From: Deltaproteobacteria bacterium
GTDB lineage: Bacteria; Desulfobacterota; Desulfovibrionia; Desulfovibrionales; Desulfovibrionaceae
Assembly (NCBI GenBank): GCA_031275645.1
Contig: JAISOL010000052.1
Span: 1 to 32,306, forward strand
Length of the DNA stretch: 32,306 nt
Reading direction: 5' to 3'
In this document: positions 22,493 through 27,581 of the stretch, piece by piece
How positions within the stretch are numbered: position 1 is the stretch's first letter
Layout: the number at the start of each line of letters is the position of its first letter
Notes under the pieces: model-generated
The model's input: only the letters and a program-made list of their open reading frames with translations
Told to the model about the DNA's origin: nothing
The model's database searches: none
Position numbers and translations under genes: made by a program

Positions 22493-22975
22493 TTAACCGG
22501 ATTTGCCGGCGGAGCAGGAGGGGCAGGCGCCCTGTATCTCTATGCTGGCGTTGTCCAGAGAAAAGCCCAGGACGCCCAGGCGCGCGCGCAGGGAGTCGTA
22601 TAAAACCGGGTCGTTGAGCTCGGAGGCCTTCTGGCAGTCCGAGCAGACGAAAAGCAGCAGGCCGCCGCTATCATGGGCGGCCGTGCAGGGAACATAGGCG
22701 TTGAGCGCGTTGATGCGGTGCGCCAACCCCTGCTGCAGCAGAAATTCCAGAGTCCGGTACATGGTGGCGGGGGTGATCCGCCTGCCGTCCTCACGCATGC
22801 GGTCAATAATGTCATAAGCTTTGAGCGGCGCTCCCGCTTGAAGAAGGATTTTGAAAATTTTGCGGCGTATGGCCGTCAGGCGCACGCCGTGCCGCGCGCA
22901 CAGCTCTTCCGCATCCTTCGCGGCGGAGCAGCCTCCGCTTCCGGCGGCCGGAACAGCCCGGACGGGTGCTTTCAT
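22493..22975 (-). CDS. zur: Zinc uptake regulator Zur (Fur family)
   Basis: The 160-residue Fur-family repressor. The winged-helix part is at about residues 22-95, with RRITPATMYRTLEFLLQQGLA as recognition helix region. The structural zinc is held by CSDC (111-114) and CPSC (151-154). The layout of this segment, LLLFVCSDCQKASEL, and of the GFSLDNASIEIQGACPSC tail is like E. coli Zur and unlike Fur or PerR. It should bind DNA when zinc is plentiful and shut off uptake genes. A strong binding site (GAAGGAG) precedes the ATG. It lies at the end of the zinc-uptake cluster and may be part of the same transcript. Confidence 0.87.
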   Translation of the reverse strand: MKAPVRAVPAAGSGGCSAAKDAEELCARHGVRLTAIRRKIFKILLQAGAPLKAYDIIDRMREDGRRITPATMYRTLEFLLQQGLAHRINALNAYVPCTAAHDSGGLLLFVCSDCQKASELNDPVLYDSLRARLGVLGFSLDNASIEIQGACPSCSAGKSG

Positions 22976-23005: not shown

Positions 23006-23560
23006 TTATTGCGGCAGCGGTTCCGTATAGGGCTCTATGTGATCCACCCGCATGGCATAGCTGGCCGTGCCCATGCCCCCTGTATGCCTCTCCAGAAATA
23101 TTTTGCCGTATACCCAGATTGCCGCCATGCTTTCCAGACCGTCCCGCCCCTTGTCCAGCTTGATGTAGACGATCTGGTTGGCCGGCGGCGGCGGAACGTG
23201 GATGCAGGCCCCGAAATAGGGAACCAGCAGAAACTCCCTGAGCGAGGCTTCGTCCTCCCAATCCAGAGGGGCCACAAAGCCCGGAAGTTTTATGAGCTTA
23301 TCCTGTATTTCGGGATTGACCGGAGCGTTGTTCCATTCCGTGATGAGCGTTTCCAGTATTTTGACGGCCCGGGGATCTCCATCGGCCAGTTCGTCGAGGT
23401 TGAGCCCCTCGAAAATTTTTTCCGGATGCCATGAAGCGGGGACGAGCTGTTCCCATTGTATTTCCAGGTATTGGGAGAGGGGGGGGCTCTCTCCGCCCTG
23501 GGCGGCGGCGGGTATGAAAAAGAGCAGGACAAGCGCGGCAAGGGCTTTTCTGTTCAACAT
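23006..23560 (-). CDS. Periplasmic DUF3299 protein, stand-alone paralogue
   Basis: The 184-residue exported protein has a signal peptide (MLNRKALAALVLLFFIPAAA, cut near residue 20) and a DUF3299 domain. The motif LLVPYFGACIHVPPPPANQ with a single Cys and a His is the core of the domain, and LPGFVAPLDWE precedes it. The same domain occurs in the fused gene just upstream. Function in detail is unknown; the family is found with zinc-uptake genes. GGAGG lies 6 nt or so before the ATG. The stop codon is 30 nt before the zur start. Confidence 0.85.
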   Translation of the reverse strand: MLNRKALAALVLLFFIPAAAQGGESPPLSQYLEIQWEQLVPASWHPEKIFEGLNLDELADGDPRAVKILETLITEWNNAPVNPEIQDKLIKLPGFVAPLDWEDEASLREFLLVPYFGACIHVPPPPANQIVYIKLDKGRDGLESMAAIWVYGKIFLERHTGGMGTASYAMRVDHIEPYTEPLPQ

Positions 23561-23600: not shown

Positions 23601-24881
23601 TTATCCGCGGGTCGTCAGCAGCAGCACGGCCCCCATAATAAGCACACCCGCGCACAGGCCGGCCAGACGCCTGCCTTTCCCCCCGTAGCTCCGCGCGGCG
23701 GGAAGCAGATCCCTGACGGCTATGACGAGCATGATACCCCCGGCGCAGGAAAAAAGCATCCCCCCGGCAGCGGGGGTGAGGAAAGGGTGCAGGACGAGAA
23801 AACCCAGAAGCGCTCCCGCCGGCTGCATCAGTCCGGCCAGCAGGGCGTAGCCGAAAGCCTGCCCGCGTTTATGCGTGCTGTGGTAGAGCGCCAGAGCCAC
23901 GGCCGCGCCCAGGGGGATATTATGGGCCGCGATGGCGCCTCCCAGAGTCAGTCCCATCCGGGGATCGGCCAGAGCGGCGTTGAACAGGGCGAAGCCCTCG
24001 GGAAAATTGTGCATGCCCACGGCCAGGGCGGCGATTTTGCCGGTGCGGGGAAGGAAATGCGCCTGTTCTTCCGGAGGCGAAGCCGGGCCGGATTCGCGGC
24101 GGACAGGGCAGGCCTCTCCCGGCCCGAGGCGTTGCAGAAGCAGCATAAGCAGAATGCCTGCCAGAAAAACGCCCGCGTTTTCCGGAAGAACTTCTCCGGA
24201 GGCCGGCCGGCCGAAGGCCGTCGCCAAGGCGAAAGAGATCATCAGGCCGGCGGCGAGGCTCAGGCCCAGGCAAAGCGTGCCGGGAGCGGGCGTTTTTCGG
24301 GAAAGGGCCAGCAATCCTCCCAGCCCGGCGGAAAGCCCGATCAGCAGAGTGAGGCCGAAACCGGCCGCCACAGGCATGCCTTGGTTTTCCGCATATGCCT
24401 CCGCCCTCTCAAGCTCCAGGCTGTAAGTCGAGCTGCCCAGGTCCGAGAAATTTTCCTCCAGAAGCAGCGTGCCGTAAACCTGGAGCAAATCCATGGAGCG
24501 CACTCCCCGGAGGGGGAGGCGCGGCCGGACATGGACAATCTGATTGGCCGGAGGCGGCGGCACATGTATGCAGGCGCCGAAATACGGAACCAGCAGGAAT
24601 TCCGCGAGTTCAAGTTCGCTTTCCTCATTTTTCCAATCCAGGGGGACCACAAATCCGCGCAGTTTTACGCGCTTTCCCTGAAGCGCCGGATTGGGCGGAA
24701 AATTCGCGCCGGCAGTCACGTCCTCCTTCCGCTCCGGCGGAAGAAGCTCTTCCCAGAATATTTCCGGGTAAGCGGCGCTATCCTGGGGGGGCGGGGCGGC
24801 GCGGGCGGAGCTTGCGGCCGCGGACAGCGCCGGCGCCATTATAGCCAGGAGCAGGATCAGGCGGAATTTTACGGAAAGCAC
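23601..24881 (-). CDS. Fusion of periplasmic DUF3299 domain and ZIP-family metal transporter
   Basis: A 426-residue protein from GTG 24881. A signal peptide or signal anchor (about 1-28) is followed by a DUF3299 domain at about 35-165 with LLVPYFGACIHVPPPPANQ near 96-114. From about 170 there are some eight membrane segments of a ZIP transporter: HNFPEG (291-296), HNIPLG (320-325), and QPAGALLG (353-360). The ZIP half should move zinc into the cytoplasm. The second histidine motif has Leu where HNIPEG has Glu, and the TM6 Glu position is Gln. GTG 24881 was chosen because it gives an intact signal peptide and follows the permease stop by 8 nt; no strong binding site precedes it. Related systems usually carry these as separate genes, so the fusion is unusual. 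Confidence 0.82.
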   Translation of the reverse strand: MLSVKFRLILLLAIMAPALSAAASSARAAPPPQDSAAYPEIFWEELLPPERKEDVTAGANFPPNPALQGKRVKLRGFVVPLDWKNEESELELAEFLLVPYFGACIHVPPPPANQIVHVRPRLPLRGVRSMDLLQVYGTLLLEENFSDLGSSTYSLELERAEAYAENQGMPVAAGFGLTLLIGLSAGLGGLLALSRKTPAPGTLCLGLSLAAGLMISFALATAFGRPASGEVLPENAGVFLAGILLMLLLQRLGPGEACPVRRESGPASPPEEQAHFLPRTGKIAALAVGMHNFPEGFALFNAALADPRMGLTLGGAIAAHNIPLGAAVALALYHSTHKRGQAFGYALLAGLMQPAGALLGFLVLHPFLTPAAGGMLFSCAGGIMLVIAVRDLLPAARSYGGKGRRLAGLCAGVLIMGAVLLLTTRG

Positions 24882-24889
24882 GGGCAGGC

Positions 24890-26161
24890 TCAGGTAGAGG
24901 CCGTGAGGCCGTCGGCCAGGCTCAGACGGTAGGCGCGCCAGGCCGGAATAAGGCAGGTGAGAAAGCCGGCCGCGGCGATTCCGCCCAGCAGCAGCAGTTC
25001 GCCCGTTCCCGGCGGGGAGACGTGGAGGGCTATGCCGTAGCTGTCGGCGAGCGTCGGCCCCAGAGCGAGCAGCAGCAGGACAAGCAGGAGCAGCCCGCAG
25101 GCCATGCCCGCGCACAGGAGCAGAAATCCCTCGCAGGCGAGCAGGATGAGTATGTCCAGCGGGCGCGCCCCGGCGGAGCGCAGTATGGCCAGCTCTCTGC
25201 GGCGCTCCCCCAGGCCGGCCAGAATGGCCGAAGCCAGACCGGCCAGGCCGGTAAAGATCACCAGACCGGAAACAAGAAAAAGGGCCTGTTCGCCCGTGCT
25301 GACCAGACGCCAGATCTGATCCATGGCCACGCCCGGCATGACGCCGGTCAGGGCCTCCTCTTTCCAGTTTCTGATATCCTGCTGCAAGGCGAAGACGCGG
25401 GAGCGGCTTTTCATCCCCACCAGCAGGGCCGTGATGCTTTTGGGTTCCAGATTGAATTTCCGCACCTGATCCGGGCGGATCTCCAGGCCGCGTATGGGCG
25501 CGCCGCCCTGCCAGTTGAGATGGATGGCTTCCATGGCTTCAAGGCTGATGTACAGGGATCTGTCCACGGGAGTGCCGGTGGGCCGCAGGACGCCGGAAAC
25601 GACAAAAGGCTTGTCCTCGTGCCGCGCCAGTTGAGCGCCGCTGTTGCCGTGGCTTAAAATAATCCTGCTGCCCGGAACGTAGCCGTGTTTTTTGGCGACT
25701 TCCGAGCCTGTGACCACATCGAAAAGATCGCTGAAGCTCCCGCCCTGCGCGAGTTGCAGTTCTCTCCCCCCGCGGAAGCGGTAGCGCGTGAAGAAATCGG
25801 CGCTGGTGCCCACAACGGGATAGCCGTTGTGGGAATCCCCCAGGGATATGGGAACGCTCCAGGCCACATCCGGCCGCGCGGCAATGCTCAGGGCGCTTTT
25901 CCAGCTCATGTTGTTGGTGGCTCCGCCCAGGTGGAACACGGCGTAAAGCATAAGCTGCATATCGCCGCCGCGCGCCCCGACCACAAGATCCACGCCGGAT
26001 ACCGCCTGCACGAAGCTCTCCCGCACCTGGGTTCTGACCCGCTCCAGGCCGAGCAGAAGCGTTGTGGACAAGGCGATGGAAAGGACGACCAGCAGCAGGG
26101 TGCCCCGCCTGTTCCAGGCGCTTTTTCCGGCGAGAAAGAAAAGATAGGTAAAGCGGATCAT
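24890..26161 (-). CDS. FtsX/MacB-type ABC transporter permease (Zrg-like)
   Basis: A 423-residue permease from the ATG at 26161. One membrane segment near residues 20-42 is followed by a periplasmic MacB-like domain of some 230 residues (GVDLVVGARGGDMQLMLYAVF..., PVVGTSADFF). Three membrane segments follow near the C-terminus, with GLGERRRELAILRSAGARPLDI as the FtsX coupling helix. The ATG sits one base after the ATPase stop (TGAGATG), so translation is coupled. With the ATPase it forms an ABC pair of the mechanotransmission type, probably acting on the periplasmic zinc-binding protein rather than exporting a macrolide. The exact transported substrate is inference from context. Confidence 0.88.
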   Translation of the reverse strand: MIRFTYLFFLAGKSAWNRRGTLLLVVLSIALSTTLLLGLERVRTQVRESFVQAVSGVDLVVGARGGDMQLMLYAVFHLGGATNNMSWKSALSIAARPDVAWSVPISLGDSHNGYPVVGTSADFFTRYRFRGGRELQLAQGGSFSDLFDVVTGSEVAKKHGYVPGSRIILSHGNSGAQLARHEDKPFVVSGVLRPTGTPVDRSLYISLEAMEAIHLNWQGGAPIRGLEIRPDQVRKFNLEPKSITALLVGMKSRSRVFALQQDIRNWKEEALTGVMPGVAMDQIWRLVSTGEQALFLVSGLVIFTGLAGLASAILAGLGERRRELAILRSAGARPLDILILLACEGFLLLCAGMACGLLLLVLLLLALGPTLADSYGIALHVSPPGTGELLLLGGIAAAGFLTCLIPAWRAYRLSLADGLTAST

Positions 26162-26162
26162 C

Positions 26163-26900
26163 TCAGCGGCCCGCGCGGCGGTTAAGTTCCTCAAAATTCG
26201 CCGCCGAGGAGAATTCGGCGGCCAGTCCCTGATCGTGGCTCACAAAGATCAGGGTTGAGCCGGAATTTTCACATTCGCGCAGCAGAAGGCGCAAAAAATC
26301 CCTGCGCCTGTCCGCGTCCAGGGAAGAGGTCGGCTCATCGGCAATAAGCAGCTCCGGGCCGCCTATGAGGGCGCGGGCCGCGGCCACCCTCTGCTGCTGC
26401 CCCACGGACAGGTGCGCGACCCGGCGCTCCCAGAGTTCCGCCCGCAAATCAAGGCATTCCAGCAGGTTTCGCGCCGCCAGCGCCGCGCTCCCGGCCTGCC
26501 GGGCGGCTCTGGCGGCGCGCCTTGCGGAAAAGCGGCAGGGGATCAGGACATTTTCCAGTATGGACAAATAAGGGACAAGATTAAACTGCTGGAAAATCAC
26601 GCCGACGTGATCTCCCCGGAACCTGTCCCTGGCGGCTCCGCCCAGCTTGTGCAGAGCCGTGCCCTGCACCGAGACCTCCCCTTCCGAAGCCGTCAGGACG
26701 CCGGAAAGGAGGCCGAGCAGGGTGCTTTTGCCGCTGCCGCTCGGCCCGAAAATAAACAGGCGCTCCCCCGCCTTTATGGTCAGCTCGGGGATATGCAGCA
26801 CCGGATTCTCCTGCCCCGGCCAGGCGAAGGAGACGGCGCGCAGGCTCACGGCCGGCGGCGCGGCTTCCTCGGAAGAGAGCCGGGGCTCCGCCCTTACCAT
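26163..26900 (-). CDS. ABC transporter ATPase (LolD/MacB type, Zrg-like)
   Basis: The 245-residue ATPase has Walker A GPSGSGKST near 53-61, the Q-loop VIFQQFNLVPYLSILEN, the signature LSVGQQQRVAAARALIGGPE, Walker B LLIADEPTSSLD and the H-loop FVSHDQG. It is of the LolD/MacB/FtsE group that works with FtsX-type permeases. It overlaps the end of the DUF2796 gene by 7 nt and the permease starts one base after its stop. The trio is translated as a unit. Confidence 0.93.
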   Translation of the reverse strand: MVRAEPRLSSEEAAPPAVSLRAVSFAWPGQENPVLHIPELTIKAGERLFIFGPSGSGKSTLLGLLSGVLTASEGEVSVQGTALHKLGGAARDRFRGDHVGVIFQQFNLVPYLSILENVLIPCRFSARRAARAARQAGSAALAARNLLECLDLRAELWERRVAHLSVGQQQRVAAARALIGGPELLIADEPTSSLDADRRRDFLRLLLRECENSGSTLIFVSHDQGLAAEFSSAANFEELNRRAGR

Positions 26901-27502
26901 CTCAGGCGGTTTTCACCGGGAGTCAGTTCCGCGGCTTTCTGCCCCTTGCCGGTGATTAACTGCGCTTCAATTTCGTTAACTCCCGGGAATTTTTTGAACA
27001 GATCCAGCTCAAGAGAATTCAGAGCGGCAGGATTGGCGCAGTGGAAAGTAAAAGCGGCGTCAAGGTCGGCATGGCCTTCCTCTCCTTCATGCTCTTCCTC
27101 CCCCTCATGCTTTTCAGGCGCGGGCGCCGCCGCTCCGGCGGCCGGGCGCGCGGCTTCCCCTCCGGCAGGCGGGGCAAGGAGTTCAGCGCTCAAGGCCCCG
27201 GATTCCAGCTCAATTTCCGCGCTCCGGCAACGGGCCGCCGCCGGGAAGAGGAAAAGTTCATCCGCGCGGTGCAGAAGCAGAGCCATATGGCGGGCTTCAT
27301 CCTTCTGGGCCGCGCTTTCCGGAGCGTGCTCAAAAGAAAGCAGGTTGGCCAGAGGCGTTTCCAGCTCAATTTCCACCGTCCCGCCTTCCACGGCGATATT
27401 CATATGCGCCACGCCGTGTTCGTGCGGGCCGTGCGCGTAAGCGGCCGCAACCGCAAAAACGGGGGAACAAAAAAGAAAGAGCAGTAAAAATGATTTTTTC
27501 AT
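26894..27502 (-). CDS. Periplasmic zinc-binding protein, DUF2796 (ZrgA-like)
   Basis: The 202-residue exported protein has a signal peptide (about 1-23) followed at once by a histidine-rich mature start, HGPHEHGVAHMNI. A second metal-binding stretch, EKHEGEEEHEGEEGHAD, lies near residues 133-150. The pattern MNIAVEGGTVEIELETPLANLL and FHCANPAAL...ELDLFKKFPGV is DUF2796, the family of Vibrio cholerae ZrgA. It should hold zinc in the periplasm for uptake. AAGGAAA lies 7 nt before the ATG. It is first in the zinc cluster, with a Zur-type operator upstream. Confidence 0.88.
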   Translation of the reverse strand: MKKSFLLLFLFCSPVFAVAAAYAHGPHEHGVAHMNIAVEGGTVEIELETPLANLLSFEHAPESAAQKDEARHMALLLHRADELFLFPAAARCRSAEIELESGALSAELLAPPAGGEAARPAAGAAAPAPEKHEGEEEHEGEEGHADLDAAFTFHCANPAALNSLELDLFKKFPGVNEIEAQLITGKGQKAAELTPGENRLRW

Positions 27503-27562: not shown

Positions 27563-27581
27563 AATGATATATTATTTCATT
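27563..27581 (-). promoter_or_regulatory. Candidate Zur operator of the zinc-uptake operon
   Basis: AATGATATATTATTTCATT is a 19-bp inverted repeat with 8 of 9 pairs matched around a central T. It resembles proteobacterial Zur boxes of the GTTATA-TATAAC type in size, AT content and symmetry. It lies 61 nt upstream of the first gene's start, and on the - strand a TTGACA (27589-27584) sits directly before it. A repressor bound here would block the promoter. A Zur gene lies in the same cluster. Confidence 0.65.

Follow-up and report, generated by a model that had tools for sequence, protein, structure and literature searches.

The analyzed stretch of DNA (the window, 32,306 nucleotides) contains a zrg operon in which a DUF3299 domain and a ZIP metal permease domain are encoded in one reading frame. 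The fusion gene is located on the minus strand (24881 to 23601), starts with GTG at position 24881 and comprises 426 codons with a stop-free translation. We consider it somewhat better than an even chance that the protein is a tethered inner-membrane zinc-uptake permease of the zrg operon, replacing ZnuABC in most of the species that carry it.

Both domains were identified by profile searches. Residues 62-160 match DUF3299 (PF11736; E 1.9e-30; 106 bits, cut-off 22), placing this ZrgE-like domain at 24402 to 24695. The ZIP domain extends over 23628 to 24380, with helices from residue 168 and the Pfam core at 23628 to 24041 (residues 281-418; PF02535, E 5.9e-20, 72.2 bits against a cut-off of 35.1). 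The NCBIfam ZupT model (NF003243) aligns over residues 171-422 and the ZIP domain is therefore complete, but the cut-off of this equivalog is missed (188.6 vs 252 bits). In an AlphaFold2 model built from 15 natural fusions (pLDDT 79.3, pTM 0.71), residues 2-24 form a helical N-terminus and residues 71-162 a beta domain, followed by transmembrane helices at 168-425. Compared with PDB structures, the DUF3299 half of the model (residues 36-169) resembles 4hsp with a Z score of 14.8 and an rmsd of 2.6 over 125 residues, and the ZIP half (residues 167-424) resembles BbZIP with a Z score of 17.2 and keeps the full ZIP fold. The N-terminus of the protein is a hydrophobic, signal-like segment. The modelled order of signal, DUF3299 and first transmembrane helix would fit, given what is known of the family, a periplasmic N-terminus. 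The sequence-only reading, which had placed a signal sequence, DUF3299 and ZIP in a single frame, is thus confirmed by the profile matches, the model and the PDB comparison.

The fusion gene is the fourth gene of an operon with the order zrgA-zrgC-zrgB-[DUF3299-ZIP]-zrgE-zur, whose genes are nearly contiguous and all located on the minus strand. It is preceded by genes for the periplasmic zinc protein ZrgA with a His/Glu-rich loop (26894 to 27502; PF10986, E 2.4e-49), a ZrgC-like ABC ATPase (26163 to 26900; profile match) and a ZrgB-like ABC permease with MacB_PCD and FtsX domains (24890 to 26194). Downstream follow a stand-alone ZrgE-like DUF3299 gene (23006 to 23560; 184 aa, PF11736 E 7.4e-40), which is a paralogue of the fused domain according to the tree, and a gene for a Fur-family regulator (22493 to 22975), whose nearest NCBIfam model is Zur with 94 bits, under the cut-off of the model. 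ZrgA, ABC ATPase, FtsX/MacB permease and DUF3299 occur together here, as in the described zrgABCDE / PA4063-4066 gene set (PMC9817125; PMC9820375; PMC8561739), and the stand-alone DUF3299 protein is therefore ZrgE, which has been described as DUF3299 (PMC9817125). DUF3299 is consequently not the unknown it had been taken for, as the family is the ZrgE/PA4066 component of known Zur-regulated systems. Most zrg operons do not encode a ZIP and their DUF3299 protein works without one from the operon, so a ZIP is not essential to the zrg system in general.

A Zur-box-like operator, the near-palindrome AATGAAATAATATATCATT, is located upstream of zrgA (27563 to 27581, minus strand). It is the sole copy at up to two mismatches in the 1.8 Mb genome of the window. 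Relatives (consensus CAAAAATGCAAYAATATATCATTTCA) precede zrgA or zrgC in the majority of zrg loci from the window's family, both with and without the fusion; as a control, shuffled sequence gave three chance matches at the loosest setting of the search. The window operon thus contains both a Zur-like gene and a conserved operator-like palindrome, and Zur may bind at this putative operator.

Several zrg loci show further variations. In loci of a second type (L066:7696 and 10781, minus strand; L068:1146 and 3469, plus strand), a shortened zrgA is separated from zrgC by a GGDEF/EAL-like gene, and each of the two has its own operator-like site. In two fusion species (L069:3938-5311 and L070:3600-4901, both plus strand), the periplasmic domain of the ZrgB permease has a His-rich insertion, as if the His-rich loop of ZrgA had been relocated there; ZrgA was not detected in these two genomes, one of which is only 81% complete. 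A zrg operon on a Pseudooceanicola plasmid contains two tandem stand-alone DUF3299 genes (L089:7064-8007, plus strand) and lies near a ZnuA-type gene and two genes for GTP-binding proteins.

Among 288 genomes of the window's family, 28 contain DUF3299 and 15 the DUF3299-ZIP fusion. The same fusion is therefore carried by 15 species, which fall in three genera. Outside the family it was not seen in samples of 348 order genomes and 395 phylum genomes. On the plasmids searched, DUF3299 and ZIP were found only apart. A contig scan returned stand-alone ZIPs and no fusion, which is weak evidence because few exact peptide patterns were used. No paper describing the fusion was found in our literature searches. 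Where the neighboring genes lie on the same contig, the fusion gene always follows the ZrgB permease gene and precedes zrgE or zur. The fused DUF3299 domains group as one clade in the trees, with ZrgE proteins from these lineages as neighbors (96/85 and 95/93), and the fused ZIP domains are split from stand-alone ZupT-type proteins (98/93). The first of these groupings indicates that a duplicate of zrgE gained the ZIP, and the simplest history would be a single duplication followed by a single fusion event, with one apparent origin. A separate ZIP gene beside single-zrgE operons was looked for and not seen at the family loci fetched; in the single-zrgE genomes of the family no ZIP was found except in G663. 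In six fusion species of one genus the separate zrgE was lost and only the fused copy is kept. Their zrgA is located a few kilobases away in three, on another contig in one (G505), and was not detected in two.

Two further groups of DUF3299 proteins were found. In G663, which belongs to another genus of the window's family, a DUF3299 domain is fused to a NicO-type permease (PF11736 and PF03824; L072:4142-5668, minus strand). The CxH...NQ motif is retained and the locus contains no zrg genes. NicO is a nickel/cobalt permease family, and this second fusion suggests that DUF3299 may team with metal permeases more generally. Distant relatives from other families of the phylum (L028-L031) do not have the CxH motif but a conserved TTQTCCYGPRP.NQY segment instead; in three of these four loci they are located next to FtsX-type permease genes.

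The presence of the fusion is connected with the absence of ZnuB, which was called by PF00950 at E<=1e-20. ZnuB is present in 245 of the 288 family genomes, namely in 242/273 without the fusion and in 3/15 with it (Fisher p 9e-9). Among high-quality genomes, ZnuB is missing from 8/9 with the fusion and from 7/196 others (p 8e-10). Both p-values take related genomes as independent, so that relatedness inflates their significance, and many genomes are incomplete, but the absence of ZnuB together with the fusion recurs in three genera. All 11 compared genomes with DUF3299 but without the ZIP fusion (ten with DUF3299 in zrg operons, and G663) contain ZnuB. Neither a second detectable ZIP nor Nramp was found in the 15 fusion genomes. 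Since ZnuB is mostly gone from these genomes, the fusion, on the plainest reading, probably fills the role of zinc importer and does the job of ZnuABC in most of them. The three fusion genomes that retain ZnuB count against a replacement.

The metal sites of the 15 fusions and of nine stand-alone ZIPs were compared with those of BbZIP, for which positions were taken from the literature (PMC11549095) and from family knowledge. The M1 ligands H291, E295 and H320 are invariant in 15/15 fusions (BbZIP H177, E181 and the His of position 207 are kept), and 14/15 have an acidic residue at the E276 position. The glutamate of TM5 (BbZIP E211) is replaced by Leu or Val and that of TM6 (E240) by Pro or Gln in all 15; E211 is kept in all nine stand-alone ZIPs. 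We take E211 to be a ligand of both M1 and M2 in BbZIP, E240 to be an M2 ligand and E276 to be the release position. The M1/M2 binuclear site, a canonical ZIP feature outside the Pfam family definition, is thus incomplete in the fusion. The ZIP domain, which had been described as full, is complete in its fold, but two glutamates of its metal site are replaced. Disruption of M2 in BbZIP lowers transport only modestly (PMC11549095), which would fit a working transporter with one site here. H177A/E211A, however, was used to destroy M1, the authentic transport site (PMC11549095), and transport by a ZIP without E211 is therefore not assured. The altered ZIP may still transport metal. It represents a naturally altered metal site and could be used to test which ligands a ZIP needs. 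In the DUF3299 domain C104, H106, N113 and Q114 are invariant among the fusions, and Cys104-x-His106 could act as metal ligand.

The altered site also allows the ZIP half to be read as a pseudo-transporter that no longer transports metal and instead anchors DUF3299 in the membrane, or acts as a receptor or sensor of zinc, and presents DUF3299 to ZrgB. The loss of both the E211 and the E240 equivalent in 15/15 fusions and the strong divergence of the ZIP halves, several of which are under the Pfam cut-off, argue for this. It is nevertheless rather unlikely, as the full ZIP fold, the three invariant M1 residues and the E276-type acid in 14/15 are retained, and as the fusion genomes have no other ZIP or Nramp and 12/15 no ZnuB.

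The metal moved by the fusion is probably zinc, judged from the genes around it. A permease for Co, Ni, Mn or Fe, whose level would go up when zinc is scarce so that less zinc is needed, is an unlikely explanation to which lower odds are given. It would agree with the altered ZIP site, which could shift selectivity, with the NicO domain of the sibling fusion and with the link of P. aeruginosa PA4063-4066 to cobalt, as the ABC pair of this system was reported to export pyochelin-cobalt (PMC11481552). The operon, however, contains ZrgA and a Zur-like regulator, and the fusion is anticorrelated with the zinc importer family ZnuB, although PF00950 also includes manganese/iron permeases.

It is quite improbable that the two domains share a polypeptide only for joint expression, in which case DUF3299 would act on ZrgBC while the ZIP functions on its own. 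DUF3299 occurs without ZIP in most zrg operons, and most first-type operons retain a separate ZrgE in addition to the fusion, both as expected from such independence. On the other hand, the fusion was retained through deep divergence, six species were left with the fused copy alone, and DUF3299 was joined a second time to a different permease family.

A frameshift, missed stop or assembly join can practically be dismissed, as the same unbroken frame is found in 15 independent species assemblies, the other 14 proteins being 30-42% identical to that of the window, although the window's own assembly consists of 77 contigs. A separate start of the ZIP near residue 170 is not supported either. The window fusion has ATG at residue 169 and GTG at 171, neither with a clear, properly spaced Shine-Dalgarno sequence, and the other species have no conserved start codon in the junction region.

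For the favored reading, a zinc-uptake permease tethered to DUF3299, the following course can be proposed. Under zinc starvation Zur would leave the operator and the zrg operon would be made. ZrgA would bind zinc in the periplasm and the MacB/FtsX-type ABC pair ZrgBC would use ATP for work on the periplasmic side of the membrane. The DUF3299 domain would sit where the ZIP domain opens to the periplasm and either take zinc, probably via Cys104/His106, or dock the ZrgABC complex. The ZIP domain would then move the ion across the inner membrane, in place of ZnuABC in most fusion species. The interpretation given in the sequence-only reading is partly supported. Its tie of DUF3299 to metal import is backed, more strongly than the sequence alone could show, by the zrg operon with its zur gene and operator-like site, the 15 fused species with mostly ZnuB-less genomes and the NicO fusion; DUF3299 itself may hand metal over to the pore or act as its gate.

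MacB-type proteins are thought to act by mechanotransmission, according to the statement in PMC11481552 that cites Crow 2017. By analogy, such ABC pairs would not pass small ions through, and an importing zrg system would therefore need a separate pore. In the fusion species this pore is most likely the ZIP attached to the ZrgE partner. As a tentative extension, for which we would give clearly less than even chances, zrg may be a two-stage importer, in which the ABC pair itself takes no metal across the membrane but loads or strips periplasmic metal, and a secondary permease, here joined to ZrgE and superseding ZnuABC, performs the crossing. DUF3299 would then be a general adaptor linking the handling of periplasmic metal to permeases like ZIP and NicO.

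To our knowledge, the structure of ZrgE/PA4066 is solved but no role has been assigned to it. The natural fusion makes this role directly testable and probably reveals the working partner of ZrgE. As a point against the favored reading, individual zrgE knockouts in V. cholerae did not affect growth (PMC9820375). The published work also conflicts, as ZrgBC is described to import zinc in Vibrio and to export a cobalt metallophore complex in Pseudomonas; the Pseudomonas finding likewise counts against the favored reading. The fusion bears on this dispute, since ZrgE is here joined to a metal permease fold, mostly in genomes that have no ZnuB, which speaks in favor of import.

The window operon shares ZrgA, the ABC ATPase, the ABC permease, DUF3299 (ZrgE) and probably regulation by zinc starvation with Vibrio ZrgABCDE (PMC9817125; PMC9820375). 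It differs by an extra DUF3299 fused to ZIP and its own zur-like gene; ZrgD (DUF2607) is not among its assigned genes, for which no dedicated ZrgD search was made. Pseudomonas PA4063-PA4066 has the same gene set, the same DUF3299 fold (PA4066 is 4hsp) and the CIHVPPPP..NQ motif, but its DUF3299 has no fused ZIP. The NicO (RcnA-type) Ni/Co permeases are related to this subject only by the joined DUF3299 domain of G663; they form an unrelated permease family and the locus is not a zrg operon. With ZupT and BbZIP, the ZIP half shares the fold and the HNxPE and HN motifs of TM4 and TM5. In contrast to these proteins, the fusion has an additional N-terminal periplasmic domain and replaced glutamates in TM5 and TM6, and it scores under the NCBI cut-off for ZupT.
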